Shown: positions 49,912 to 54,481 of the stretch, in pieces
How the letters are laid out: the number at the start of each line of letters is the position of its first letter
Position numbering within the stretch: position 1 is the first letter of the stretch
NCBI GenBank assembly: GCA_016872645.1
Contig: VGZH01000034.1
Coordinates: 1 to 58,091 of the forward strand
DNA from: Planctomycetota bacterium
GTDB lineage: Bacteria; Planctomycetota; Planctomycetia; Planctomycetales; Planctomycetaceae
Reading direction: 5' to 3'
Length of the DNA: 58,091 nucleotides
Position numbers and translations under genes: made by a program
The notes under the pieces: model-generated
What the model saw: only the letters and a program-made list of their open reading frames with translations
The model's database searches: none
What the model was told of the DNA's origin: nothing

Positions 49912-52002
49912 TCACCAGCGTCCCATCACCGTGTGCAGGCTGTTGATTTTCGAGACTTTCGGAACACCCAGTTCAATGTGCGGCGTCTGAGCGGCCAGTC
50001 CATAGAAAGTGCGCGGAACCGGCGAGTACTCGGCACGCATGCCACTTGGAATGACTGCACCAGATCGAAGTCGGACGCTCGCGGTTTCCATCAAGCTTTC
50101 GTGGTGCTGCCAACTGGCTGTGCCGTAAAGGTGGTACTTTGGTGCGCCTCCCCAATAACTGGAAGAGGGAGATCCGGTAGTCGCAAGGCCAGCCGGTCGC
50201 TCCAGCGGATGTCGTTGCAATGCGGTGCTGACCTCCTTGAGTTCGGCTTCGGTCGCAGGTTGCAGATCGATGCTCGCTCCCGCTGGCACACTCTTACCGA
50301 CGAACAATTGACCCTGTTCGTTGACCACGACCAGCGGCTCAAAGCCCCATTCAAACCCATTTGCGACGGTCAGCTTGTCGGGGCCCGAAGAGGTCACTTC
50401 CAAGCGACCACGCTCAGTGCGATGACCGACCGTCAAAAACTGCGTGCGCGTTCGCGATCGCAGCCAGCCCGACGTGAGATTCTGCGAGTTGGTCCAATCC
50501 ACTTGGCCGGACTCAAACTGTTCATTTTCCGGCCAGATCGGGTACACGGCAGTGTCGCGAGAGAATTGCATACCCGCCGAGGGGGCTTGTCCGGCATACA
50601 GGCTGAGCCGACTAAACGTCACCGCCGATTGCGCGGTTTGATCGACGAACGTCAGACTTCGGCAGCGAGCCTTCACGCTGAAGCCGTGAGCGACGATCGT
50701 GTAGCCAAACAATACCAAGCTAGTCATCAACGCCACGCTAGGAATCGTGAGCAGCAGCAGATGAAGCTGCTTTCGGCGTGCCAGAACGAAATAGTTCAGC
50801 GGGCCAATCACCACGGCAAAGATCGTGATCAACACCAGAAACATCACGATCGGCACGCCACCAACGCCAGGAATCAGGAACAGCAAAAAGTCGCTCGTTC
50901 CCGTGCGAGCGGACTCGCCATGCCGCTTGCCCCAATCCCATCGTGGCAGGCCACCGATCGATTTCAACAGCCAAAACCAATCCTGAGCCGTGCCGGGAAA
51001 CGGTTGACCGCGAAACAGAGCCAGCTTGCCGAATCCGACGTCAGCCACGCGAAACGGCATCACTTCGCGCGACCATTCGCCAGGAGCAGCCGTCGGAGTA
51101 CTGATGGTGGTCGTGCCTCCACTGGTATCCTGATGCACGATCTGAGCGACATCACGATCGGCAAGCTGCGGCTCAGCCCAAGACCAAGCGCCGGCGGAAT
51201 CGACATCGCTGATCAGCAACTTGGCGGGTGCGCCGCTGGCGGATTCCCAATCACCGGCAGCCGTCACAAGCAATGTTCCGCCGCATCGTGTCCATTGAAT
51301 CAGAGCTGCCTGAGTTCCCTTGGGAAGTTTGTTCAATTCAGTGAGCGGGATTGAAACGATGTCGAGACCGCTGTAGTCGATCCACGAACTGGGCAAGGAA
51401 TTCGAGGGCAGCGCGACACAATTTGATGTTCGATAACCGCCGTGATAGACCCCTCCGCTGGTGCTCGCCCCGCCGGAGGTGTGACGAAATGTGGTCGCAC
51501 CATCTTCAAACGCTTGTAGGTCGACGACTCCGGGAGCGACCACCAGCAGGCCAGGGAGTCCCAACTCGTAAATGTTCGCTTCCGGGAGGCCGACGCTGTG
51601 TTTCATGTTTTCCAAAACGCTACCGGACTCTTCGACACGGAATTGGGCACTGTTCGAGAGGTTGACCATCGGCACTGACAGCGTGATGGCCAACGTCGCA
51701 TTCTGTGGCACCTCGATCGTCTGCCGCACACCAACGACCGACTGGTACGTTTTGGCGATGCGAAACGTCAGCGTGCGATTTGGGCCACGATTCACCACGC
51801 GCACTCGCACCGGGCAATATCCGCCCTGGCCACAACCGGCCCACCGCGAATCGACATCAACCTGCAAGTCATGACCGACCAGCGAAAACGACTCACCAGA
51901 TGCCTGCGCTGGCAAGACCGAGCAATGTGCAGCGGCCAACAACAGTCCAATGGCTAATGACCAACGGCTGAAGAGTAACAAACAATTCGTGTGATGCATC
52001 AT
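49912..52002 (-). CDS. Large exported/membrane protein in the MoxR locus, unknown
   Basis: The 696-residue protein starts at ATG 52002, overlapping the MoxR stop by four bases (ATGA), and has a signal peptide (WSLAIGLLLAAAHCSVLPAQA). A beta-rich N-terminal domain (YCPVRVRVVNRGPNRTLTFR) and a Rossmann-like part (GLDIVSIPLTELNKLPKGT) precede two membrane segments around 395-460 (GVPIVMFLVLITIFAVVIGP, LLTIPSVALMTSLVLFGYTI), then a large soluble C-terminal domain. This domain order resembles membrane proteins that accompany MoxR/DUF58 in planctomycetes. It converges on the phosphorylase gene with 7 bases between. Function unknown. Confidence 0.75.
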   Translation of the reverse strand: MMHHTNCLLLFSRWSLAIGLLLAAAHCSVLPAQASGESFSLVGHDLQVDVDSRWAGCGQGGYCPVRVRVVNRGPNRTLTFRIAKTYQSVVGVRQTIEVPQNATLAITLSVPMVNLSNSAQFRVEESGSVLENMKHSVGLPEANIYELGLPGLLVVAPGVVDLQAFEDGATTFRHTSGGASTSGGVYHGGYRTSNCVALPSNSLPSSWIDYSGLDIVSIPLTELNKLPKGTQAALIQWTRCGGTLLVTAAGDWESASGAPAKLLISDVDSAGAWSWAEPQLADRDVAQIVHQDTSGGTTTISTPTAAPGEWSREVMPFRVADVGFGKLALFRGQPFPGTAQDWFWLLKSIGGLPRWDWGKRHGESARTGTSDFLLFLIPGVGGVPIVMFLVLITIFAVVIGPLNYFVLARRKQLHLLLLTIPSVALMTSLVLFGYTIVAHGFSVKARCRSLTFVDQTAQSAVTFSRLSLYAGQAPSAGMQFSRDTAVYPIWPENEQFESGQVDWTNSQNLTSGWLRSRTRTQFLTVGHRTERGRLEVTSSGPDKLTVANGFEWGFEPLVVVNEQGQLFVGKSVPAGASIDLQPATEAELKEVSTALQRHPLERPAGLATTGSPSSSYWGGAPKYHLYGTASWQHHESLMETASVRLRSGAVIPSGMRAEYSPVPRTFYGLAAQTPHIELGVPKVSKINSLHTVMGRW

Positions 52003-53039
52003 GCTCTCACATCCGCAGGAAGCTGGTGAGCCACTTCGGCGACACGGCTGGTCAACAGGTCCACCATTTTGGGGGGCGTCCAACCTTCTAATCGCGCCGA
52101 ATAGTCCAGGATCAGCCGGTGTCCGAGCACGCACGGCGCAACCTTGTGAACTTCGTGAAAACCAACATTTGGTTTGCCGGACAAAAGAGCTGCGGCGCGA
52201 CTGGTGTTCGCCAGCGCGATCGCAGCACGCGGCGATGCCCCGTACTTCACGAACTTCTTGACCTCATCGGGAGAGTCCGGCCGCTGCGGATGCGTGGCGG
52301 TAACCAACCGAGCGATGTAATTCGAGACCGCCTCGGGCAAGTGTACTCGGTCGGTCAAATCGAACAGTCGCGAGAGTTCCATGCCGGACATGACCTCAGC
52401 AAGAGTCGGTGCCTGTCCCCGTTTCCGCGTGCTGATGATTTGCTGAAGCGTCTCGCTGCTGACTCCGTGCACGATGATCTTGAACGTGAAGCGATCGACT
52501 TGAGCTTCGGGGAGCGGGTACGTCCCTTCTAACTCGATCGGGTTCTGAGTTGCCAGCACGAAGAACGGCTGCGGCAGCGGGTGCGTCTCCCCCATCACAG
52601 TCACGCGGTGTTCCTGCATCGCTTCGAGCAGAGCGGACTGAGTCTTCGGCGTTGCGCGGTTGATTTCGTCCGCCAGCACCAGGTTGGCGAAGATCGGACC
52701 GAGATGAAACACCAGCTTGCGGCTTCCATTCCGATCTTCCAGGATCGGTGAACCAACGATGTCGCTGGGCAGCAAATCCGGAGTGAATTGCAAGCGCCGC
52801 GACGAAAGCCCCAACAGCGCGGACAACGATTTGACCAACTCGGTCTTACCCAACCCCGGCAGTCCTTCCAGCAGGATATGCCCGCGAGCCAAAAGACAAA
52901 TGACGACCTGCTCGATCAACTCCTGTTGTCCCAAGATCGCGGAATTGAGTCCGTCGATCAGACGTTGCAGCAGTTGTTGAGCTTCCGCGACTTCGGAGGG
53001 CGTCAGAAGCGGGTCTTTGGCAGGTGCGTCCGTTGGCAA
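51999..53039 (-). CDS. MoxR family AAA+ ATPase
   Basis: MoxR ATPases act as chaperones with DUF58/vWA partners. From TTG 53039 the product is 346 residues. Signatures are [20 protein letters not shown] (Walker A), [40 protein letters not shown] (Walker B and sensor region), [20 protein letters not shown] and DRFTFKI with the arginine finger. The lid region ends [23 protein letters not shown] 53039 is preferred because an upstream TTG (53138) would overlap the preceding gene by 67 bases; AGAAAG precedes 53039. Its stop overlaps the next gene by four bases. Confidence 0.9.
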
Positions 53040-53071
53040 GATGCAGCTTTCTGGAAGTCGAACTCGAGGTG

Positions 53072-53416
53072 CTACTTCTTCTGGGAAAAATAACTCTTCA
53101 CGGCATTGCGATGTCGCGGACGGACATTGCGATTCCAAGCTTCGTTGCCGGAGACCGCTTCGTTCGGCCGAGCGATATTTCGCGGAGCTACATCCAGCGG
53201 CTTGACCTCCGGAGAGGCGGCGGTGACCGACAAGATTTCGTCACGCGGTTTGTCGAGATACCCCGGCGGCAGAATCGTCTCCTTGAATTTCGTTCCCTGC
53301 GAACTCGACATGTCTCCAAACTCGAGATCCCCGTGTCCCGGCCCCTCAGTCACGCCACCTTTTCCCGCTCGATTGTGCATTTTCGCATCTCGACCGAGAT
53401 GCTTGCCGGTGCCCAG
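53072..53416 (-). pseudogene. C-terminal part of the upstream gene, separated by an in-frame TGA
   Basis: This 114-codon stretch continues the reading frame of the 354-residue gene without any shift, after a TGA at 53417-53419. It reads GKGGVTEGPGHGDLEFGD, GTKFKETILPPGYLDKPRDE, ILSVTAASPEVKPLDVAP and ends RPRHRNAVKSYFSQKK. From memory, homologous planctomycete proteins carry this tail (a G-rich linker, then a LPPG segment and a final PRHRxxVRxYF-type motif) as part of the same polypeptide, so the TGA looks like a nonsense codon, a read-through site or a sequencing error. Restart at ATG 53380 is possible but has no good ribosome-binding site. Confidence 0.6.
53385..53402 (-). promoter_or_regulatory. 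Compact hairpin 14 bases after the in-frame TGA
   Basis: On the minus strand GCATCTC and GAGATGC form a perfect 7-pair stem with a GGTC loop, starting 14 bases after TGA 53417-53419. The loop begins with G and lies 22-25 bases from the TGA. That spacing is within the general limits described for bacterial SECIS elements, but a chance palindrome cannot be excluded. Confidence 0.35.
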
Positions 53417-54481
53417 TCAGGTGCCGCCGGGCTTCTTGCATTCTTCGCAGTCGGGGTTGTTGCACTTCTCGCATTTGGCTCGCAGGTCGGCGAGCTTCAG
53501 AGATTCCTTATCGAGGAAATTTTGCAATTCCTCCGCCAGTGCTTCACGCTCGGCGGCGTCCTGAGGCAGTTTGAACTGACCCGACCTCGCCATTTCGCCA
53601 AGCTTGGCTTGCATCGCCGGGGACAACTTGCCAAGCGATCCACTTTTCGCCAACTCTTGCATCGCCTTCGCGACTTCCTCTTCTAGTTGCTGCAATTGCT
53701 CGTCTGAGAGCTTGGTCTCGCCGGACTGTCCGAGCTGAGTGAGAGCCTCGCTCAGCGCGGCTAGCGAGTCGGCTGCTTGCAACATCAGATTGGACTGGTG
53801 TTCGAGCTTGGCCTTCAACCGCTCTTGCAGTGCATCGACCGTCTCCCATTTTTCATGGGTCAGCGGCCGTTCTTTGATCTCGTTGGCCAACTTTTGCATC
53901 TCTTCTTTGAGCTGTTCACTCTCTTTCTCTTCGGGCTTGATGACCTCGGCCTCTTCGAGTTGCTGCATGAATTCTTCCAGCCGCTGCATTGTCTGCTGAC
54001 TTACGGCCCCTTCGACCACCGGCTCGTGGATGTCTCGCAATGGCACAAAGCAGGTTGCGACGGCGAACACAATCGGCAGGATCAGCACGCGAACAAACCG
54101 CACCGGACGCAGTGTCGGCAATGCCCGCCGCCACAGCGATTCGAGTTGCGGCAATCGAGCCTTCCACGCCGCACCGGGAAGTTCGCTCAGCGTCATCAGC
54201 AATCCGCCCGCCGCCAGCTTTTGATCGAGCATCGCGACCGCATCCTGACGGCTCAAGCGTCGTCGTCGAGACACCCACCACGCCACGCCGGTCACAGGAA
54301 CGCTCGCGGCCACCAGCCACAAGACATGCGGCCAGAGATTCGGCCAGCGCAACTTCACCGCCAGCACCGCGACACCGAACACGAAACAGAATCCCGCCAG
54401 CCACTCGGCCGCGTCACGCAGAAATTCTCCGACGCTGATCCGACGCACATAGCGTTGCACCCAACGATCAAATTCCGGCAT
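53417..54481 (-). CDS. DUF4175-like membrane/coiled-coil protein, stops at an in-frame TGA
   Basis: The 354-residue product has two membrane segments near the N-terminus (LAGFCFVFGVAVLAV, VLWLVAASVPVTGVAWW), a third around residue 130 (VLILPIVFAVATCFVPL), then a long Glu/Lys/Gln-rich coiled coil (about 150-310, for example LQQLEEEVAKAMQELAK), ending with a Cys-rich patch (CEKCNNPDCEECKKPGGT). It precedes MoxR on the same strand, a usual planctomycete arrangement. The frame continues after the TGA for a further 114 codons (53072-53416), suggesting a 469-codon gene. Start ATG 54481 follows GGAGG. Confidence 0.82.
   Translation of the reverse strand: MPEFDRWVQRYVRRISVGEFLRDAAEWLAGFCFVFGVAVLAVKLRWPNLWPHVLWLVAASVPVTGVAWWVSRRRRLSRQDAVAMLDQKLAAGGLLMTLSELPGAAWKARLPQLESLWRRALPTLRPVRFVRVLILPIVFAVATCFVPLRDIHEPVVEGAVSQQTMQRLEEFMQQLEEAEVIKPEEKESEQLKEEMQKLANEIKERPLTHEKWETVDALQERLKAKLEHQSNLMLQAADSLAALSEALTQLGQSGETKLSDEQLQQLEEEVAKAMQELAKSGSLGKLSPAMQAKLGEMARSGQFKLPQDAAEREALAEELQNFLDKESLKLADLRAKCEKCNNPDCEECKKPGGT

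Follow-up and report, generated by a model that had tools for sequence, protein, structure and literature searches.

An in-frame TGA in a MoxR-adjacent membrane protein gene of planctomycetes is probably decoded as selenocysteine

Introduction

Is an in-frame TGA in a planctomycete membrane protein gene a stop, or is it read as an amino acid? The question is raised by the window, the whole stretch of 58,091 nt of DNA that was analysed (Planctomycetota bacterium, contig VGZH01000034.1), in which a gene on the minus strand runs from ATG 54481 through 354 sense codons to a TGA at 53417-53419, with 114 further in-frame sense codons behind it up to TAG 53072-53074. Re-reading of the ORF reproduced exactly what the first-pass annotation had described, a 354-codon gene, a TGA and a 114-codon open tail, for which it had listed selenocysteine (Sec) as one option among several. 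With standard gene calling, the gene would stop at the TGA. We consider it very probable, from comparison of sequences, that the TGA is decoded as Sec and that the product is a three-helix, 469-residue, MoxR-adjacent selenoprotein with Sec in a flexible linker. The features at the locus are as follows.

53072..54481, minus strand: putative selenoprotein gene, 469 residues with Sec355 (ORF, homologues, hydropathy, AlphaFold model)
53417..53419, minus strand: TGA codon 355, proposed selenocysteine, motif PGGTU (same-genus TGA, Sec/Cys pairs)
53438..53473, minus strand: Cys patch C337-x2-C340-x4-C345-x2-C348, just upstream of the Sec motif
53385..53402, minus strand: predicted bacterial SECIS hairpin GCATCTC-GGTC-GAGATGC (7 bp, -9.4 kcal/mol, covariation)
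53378..53380, minus strand: ATG proposed as a restart by the first-pass annotation, judged here an ordinary internal Met
51999..53138, minus strand: MoxR-type AAA+ ATPase ORF directly downstream, start as listed (Pfam AAA_3)
49912..52134, minus strand: 740-aa ORF after MoxR, start as listed, with hydrophobic stretches by eye

Results

The TGA is conserved and is exchanged with cysteine

The residue at the TGA in homologues, a check suggested together with the original observation, proved to be Cys or the same TGA, which favours selenocysteine. Within the genus, the TGA stands at the identical codon in ten of 12 genomes, the window's own genome counted, while the other two (G001 and G008) are stop-free, their Cys-rich linker finishing with CKPCDKEGECESA or a similar sequence. 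Homologues were matched in 61 of 170 same-family genomes, and the matched stretches of 16 of these contain 20 in-frame TGA but neither TAA nor TAG. Similarly, a phylum-wide sample gave a match in 73 of 392 genomes, and 17 genomes outside the family contributed 18 in-frame TGA, again with no TAA or TAG. A scan of named genomes yielded 112 relatives, of which 80 were kept and 55 of these translated; 16 of the 55 carried an in-frame TGA and no other stop, and ten of these 16 loci were additional to the same-family search (L186, L195, L196, L200, L203, L206, L215, L217, L218 and L225).

The linker of the window gene reads CxxC...CxxC-KKPGGTU, and several TGA-bearing relatives read C-x3-C-KxPGGTU-x-G-x-G. 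As the first-pass annotation correctly noted, a CxxU motif is absent; Sec stands in PGGTU, with UxxT or UxxS following in this genus. When sister sequences were compared by eye, Cys faced Sec in KRGGTUSGKGR against KRAGVCKGAGR (L217/L216) and in KPGGTUKGLG against RAGGTCTSQG (L195/L234). More distant stop-free members carry Cys at the aligned column in most cases, with T, G, K and a gap also occurring; the linker is gappy in the alignment, and the facing of Sec and Cys is sure for the close pairs only. Homologues thus show the two signs by which a bacterial selenoprotein is recognised, an in-frame UGA that is conserved and its exchange with Cys codons. On a FastTree tree of 103 rows, with L092 and L252 placed by hand on the TGA side, the TGA has to appear or disappear 12 times, at least seven of these changes being forced by well-supported branches (shuffled mean 30.5), which indicates several gains or losses of Sec.

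A covarying SECIS-type hairpin follows the TGA

The perfect 7-bp hairpin with a GGTC loop, reported by the first-pass annotation 14 nt past the TGA, is present exactly as described: counted from the end of the TGA, its first base is nt 15 and its loop nt 22-25, giving a TGA-loop spacing of 21 nt. The published bacterial SECIS model, in the part of the source that was available, allows a loop of 3-9 nt, a stem of 4-16 bp, a G within the first two loop positions, a spacing of 16-37 nt and an energy of -7.5 or lower (PMC13188914). Loop, stem, spacing and energy (GGTC, 7 bp, 21 nt, -9.4) all fall within this range. No Rfam match was found within the window.

The hairpin by itself is only mildly unusual and is no proof of a SECIS element. 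Of 1855 TGA triplets within the window, 43 (2.3%) are followed, in the allowed geometry, by a hairpin of equal or greater stability and 117 by one of -7.1 or better, and 47 of 2000 random synonymous re-codings reached the hairpin of the window gene. In relatives, the observed energy was reached by 107 (G011), 258 (G003), 247 (G010), 409 (G046) and 19 (G017) of 2000 re-codings. What raises the hairpin above chance is that the same TGA recurs in ten of 12 genomes, that the stems covary and that the tail is under selection.

Covariation was scored on 14 hairpins with 12 distinct sequences; the misaligned hairpin of G017, with 7 bp and a TGTG loop, was left out. Pairing held in 90.5% of cells, both sides had changed in 12 cells and the covariation score was 0.489; each value was reached in 0 of 500 shuffles, and slid controls gave 0-3 both-side cells. 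The number of pairs with a both-side change and that of further pair types are not beyond chance, since 185 and 227 of 500 shuffles, respectively, did as well.

Hairpins were then scored with a simple model that allows no bulges in 42 distinct TGA contexts, 14 rows from L160 being left out as a wrong domain merge. An energy of -7.0 kcal/mol or better was reached in 33 of the 42 contexts, compared with the 117 of 1855 window triplets at -7.1 or better, and -7.5 in 27, with stems of 5-9 bp, spacings of 17-27 nt and the loop GGTC in 16; the exact GGTU motif is present in 33 of the 42. The nine contexts in which the scan found no good hairpin are L021, L195, L196, L235 and the first TGA of five genes that carry two.

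Those five genes, L028 (G020), L091 (G130), L092 (G205), L093 (G206) and L206, have two in-frame TGAs 12-13 codons apart, and a good SECIS-type hairpin lies only behind the second in the same scan. As none of the five has a good hairpin at its first TGA, the strong one that follows the second may serve both UGAs. Relatives with two TGAs are a ready-made case for testing if a single SECIS is enough for two codons.

The genome encodes the selenocysteine machinery

The search for Sec machinery, another check proposed at the outset, gave a full SelB (333.5 bits), a tRNA-Sec with anticodon UCA (75.3 bits), SelA (519.5 bits) and SelD (297 bits) in the window's own genome, all above cut-offs, which favours selenocysteine. 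The SelD domain stands after an NADH-dehydrogenase-like domain (by reading) in one 748-aa ORF (L143 508-2754, minus strand), and its motif reads CGGCGAKV, the Cys form (by reading). A partial SelD-like match below the cut-off was also seen at the edge of contig C113.

The tRNA-Sec was found in 59 of 170 same-family genomes. It is present in 12 of the 16 genomes with a TGA in this gene versus 19 of the 45 without (Fisher p 0.04), and, outside the window's genus, in five of six versus 17 of 43, a weak difference (p 0.08); the genomes are related and both p values are indicative. The four TGA genomes in which no tRNA-Sec was found are G002, G003, G005 and G206, of which G002, G003 and G005 carry a full SelB. 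In G001 and G008 (L013, L012, L108 and L109), both this gene and a second gene with a GGTU motif, described below, are stop-free and Cys-rich, and the tRNA-Sec is kept nonetheless.

We propose that the SelB/tRNA-Sec system would decode the TGA at 53417-53419 as selenocysteine, with the hairpin starting 14 nt past the TGA directing the insertion. We infer from these sequence comparisons that Sec is inserted in the cell.

The tail is under selection, and other readings of the TGA are improbable

The tail 3′ of the TGA gave dN/dS values of 0.10-0.22 in nine comparisons with TGA-bearing relatives of the same genus, indicating that it is protein-coding and under purifying selection. Such selection would also be expected of a leaky stop, at which a near-cognate tRNA inserts Trp, Cys or Arg and a truncated form may also be made. 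However, the genome holds the Sec machinery, tRNA-Sec is associated with the TGA, the SECIS-type hairpin covaries and sister sequences have Cys at the site, so that we give leaky read-through only a small chance.

A plain nonsense mutation, leaving a truncated 354-aa product, or a base-call error in an intact gene is very improbable. Truncation could be tolerated, given that the structure model is more confident upstream of the TGA; however, the TGA is common to ten species-level genomes of the genus, a stand-in for the resequencing that the first-pass annotation had called for, and TGAs occur in other families as well. Moreover, all 38 in-frame stops in the matched homologue stretches are TGA (20 from the family and 18 from the phylum sample), and the tail is under purifying selection. 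The shared TGA, the TGA-only stops and the selected tail therefore make both forms of this reading unlikely, and the shared TGA favours selenocysteine.

A split into two genes, with a restart at ATG 53380, can practically be dismissed: this in-frame ATG, whose first base is the 37th nt past the TGA, is kept in four of the ten TGA-bearing same-genus genes (G000, G005, G006 and G011), but the position is Leu in G004 and G009 and is missing in G002, G003, G007 and G010, and stop-free relatives hold both parts in one open frame. Among the options of the first-pass annotation, selenocysteine is thus the one favoured by the homologues, the machinery, the shared TGA and the single frame in relatives.

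The selenocysteine probably lies in a flexible periplasmic linker

Hydropathy predicted membrane helices at residues 24-42, 53-71 and 130-148. Positive residues are more frequent before helix 1 and between helices 2 and 3, a pattern which predicts that the C-terminal two thirds of the protein lie outside the cytoplasm. The AlphaFold model, built from 45 sequences, is of low confidence (mean pLDDT 68.7, pTM 0.39) and shows long helices, the coiled-coil region, to about residue 340 and a short C-terminal helix, which falls in a conserved RPRHR..V..YF stretch. Residues 342-402, position 355 included, have pLDDT below 50. The Cys/Gly-rich linker with Sec is probably disordered and flexible, and its location is probably periplasmic. 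The product would accordingly consist of three N-terminal membrane helices, a periplasmic coiled-coil region and a flexible linker, rich in Cys and Gly, that bears Sec.

No Pfam or NCBIfam match above curated cut-offs was obtained (NCBIfam with five proteins), and these scans gave neither a thioredoxin-family nor a metal-binding family match. Sec would thus be placed in a membrane coiled-coil protein and in no obvious thioredoxin-fold enzyme. We suggest that Sec and the neighbouring cysteines form a redox switch (selenenylsulfide/disulfide) or a metal-thiol site; in the proposed mechanism, Sec would pair with the linker cysteines in redox chemistry. Given Sec, a role as metal or metalloid ligand, made of the selenolate and the Cys patch, is possible but rather unlikely. 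The C-x2-C...C-x2-C patch of this protein, the further Cys-rich linkers of homologues and the absence of a thioredoxin-family match are in its favour, whereas a metal-binding family match is absent too, and four of the five two-TGA genes have a UxxC (UPNC, UQNC, UQDC and UQAC), which leans towards redox chemistry.

A MoxR ATPase gene follows the selenoprotein candidate

MoxR is the next ORF in all four distant TGA-bearing loci scanned (L195, L203, L206 and L217). By tblastn, 78 of 94 homologous loci have a same-strand MoxR match no more than 2600 nt downstream; the count is over loci with at least 1100 nt downstream, nine of 103 being too short. With L092 and L252 again placed by hand as TGA loci, MoxR is downstream in 34 of 35 TGA loci versus 44 of 59 without TGA. 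It was not found in 16 of the 94, namely the TGA-bearing L014 and 15 stop-free loci such as L164. The 740-aa ORF after MoxR overlaps the MoxR ORF as listed and gave no Pfam match, and neither did the ORFs after MoxR in L195, L206 and L217 (610-651 aa). We suggest from this gene order that the protein may work with the MoxR AAA+ chaperone, as its partner in the membrane, in the maturation of envelope proteins or in a stress response. Whether selenium is linked to envelope quality control in planctomycetes thereby becomes a testable question.

In two known systems, NorQ-NorD (PMC9976466) and RavA-ViaA (PMC3893208), taken here from the parts of these papers that were available, a gene likewise adjoins that of a MoxR AAA+ ATPase. 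The window protein shares this adjacency but differs in having no match to a VWA domain, the mark of a VWA-type MoxR partner, in the Pfam scan.

A second gene with a GGTU motif is a further candidate

We found 40 GGNGGNACNTGA sites in the window's own genome versus 29 for a control pattern. In two of the 40, the window gene and a second gene (gene 2), the frame is open for 300 codons or more upstream of the TGA and for 100 or more downstream; the comparison of homologues covered these two long-frame sites. The second TGA lies at:

L079 3145-3147, which is own genome contig C1, 63144-63146: gene 2 TGA

Gene 2 encodes a membrane protein of about 1100 residues, with 897 open codons before the TGA and 203 after. 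A match was found in 95 of 170 genomes, 21 of which have an in-frame TGA, and the motif GGTUPG[GSA]K is present in 17 of these 21. Two TGAs, in PGU and GGTU, occur in G025, and G107, G113 and G111 read GGTU or GGSU. All five stop-free homologues read at the site (G139 left out) have CPGCKS versus GGTUPGGKS. The usual hairpin is GCGGCA-GTT-TGCCGC (22 nt); in the scan of the 21 TGA genomes, 12 have a hairpin of -7.0 or better, G009 one of -6.8 and five a 5-bp stem at -5.3, and no good hairpin was found in G025, G107 and G111. The tRNA-Sec is present in 16 of the 21 TGA genomes versus 24 of 74 others (p 0.0004) and, outside the genus, in ten of 12 versus 22 of 72 (p 0.0008), these p values being indicative as the genomes are related. 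Gene 2 is thus a candidate second selenoprotein gene in the same genome.

The first of two TGAs in the gene 2 homologue of G135 lies in garbled sequence and is probably due to a frameshift. Another homologue, G179:C32:25649-27142, has three TAG and one TAA inside and is likely a pseudogene or a bad assembly.

Hydropathy shows a common three-helix N-terminal build for the proteins of gene 1 (the window gene) and gene 2. A profile comparison of the two did not show homology: hhalign gave a probability of 7% over 66 columns of the membrane region. The common motif is therefore not explained by any descent that has been shown.

Discussion

A 2026 catalogue lists 119 bacterial selenoprotein families and subfamilies in its Table 1 (PMC13188914). 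The window gene shares with the catalogued bacterial selenoproteins, as far as this source was covered, a UGA followed by a SECIS-type hairpin that fits the published geometry, the exchange of Sec and Cys, and the Sec machinery. It differs in that no family in Table 1 has a GGTU motif or a name that fits the window protein; catalogued families that have no NCBIfam or Pfam model are set apart by motif and name only. These sequence comparisons strongly support Sec decoding and place the gene in a new selenoprotein family, absent from the 119-family catalogue by motif, name and Pfam/NCBIfam scans. Deep-Sep (PMC12013277, in the portion available) describes nine new families that appear to be others, three of which consist of hypothetical proteins. 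Sec machinery and selenoproteins have been reported in two planctomycetes (PMC4807772, likewise in part). We found no report of the window-gene family in the portions covered of the planctomycete, Gemmataceae or MoxR selenoprotein literature, the supplementary candidate table of PMC4807772 lying outside this scope, and no GGTU with selenocysteine in the titles and texts searched; the one paper found that names both selenoprotein and MoxR is, judging by its title, about lipid metabolism in cancer. If the TGA is read as Sec, the planctomycete phylum, for which one genome paper with selenoproteins in its main text was found, would gain a further selenoprotein family, and this genome a second candidate as well.

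A likeness in build is offered by SelS (VIMP), which, in the parts of the sources available, is membrane-anchored, with a helical region and then a disordered Sec segment whose Sec can bond to Cys, and is a partner of the AAA+ ATPase p97 (PMC5725882, PMC3628699). The membrane anchor, helices, disordered Sec segment and AAA+ link recur in the predicted window protein; this is an analogy of build, and no homology is claimed. SelS has one span and a cytosolic Sec, whereas three spans, a periplasmic Sec and a putative MoxR contact are predicted here.

In the proposed mechanism, the selenoprotein would partner MoxR. A wider idea, which we regard as unlikely though worth stating, is that PGGTU and its SECIS form a portable selenium-based redox switch of planctomycetes at the outer face of the inner membrane, used by two unrelated membrane coiled-coil proteins, with a SelS/p97-like build and one SECIS for two UGAs. 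If it were true, the MoxR operon would encode a membrane selenoprotein linked to an AAA+ ATPase, in build the bacterial equivalent of SelS/p97.

Finally, the records L149-L151, titled Candidatus Kuenenia stuttgartiensis, hold relatives 92-93% identical to this gene, and their labels are probably wrong.
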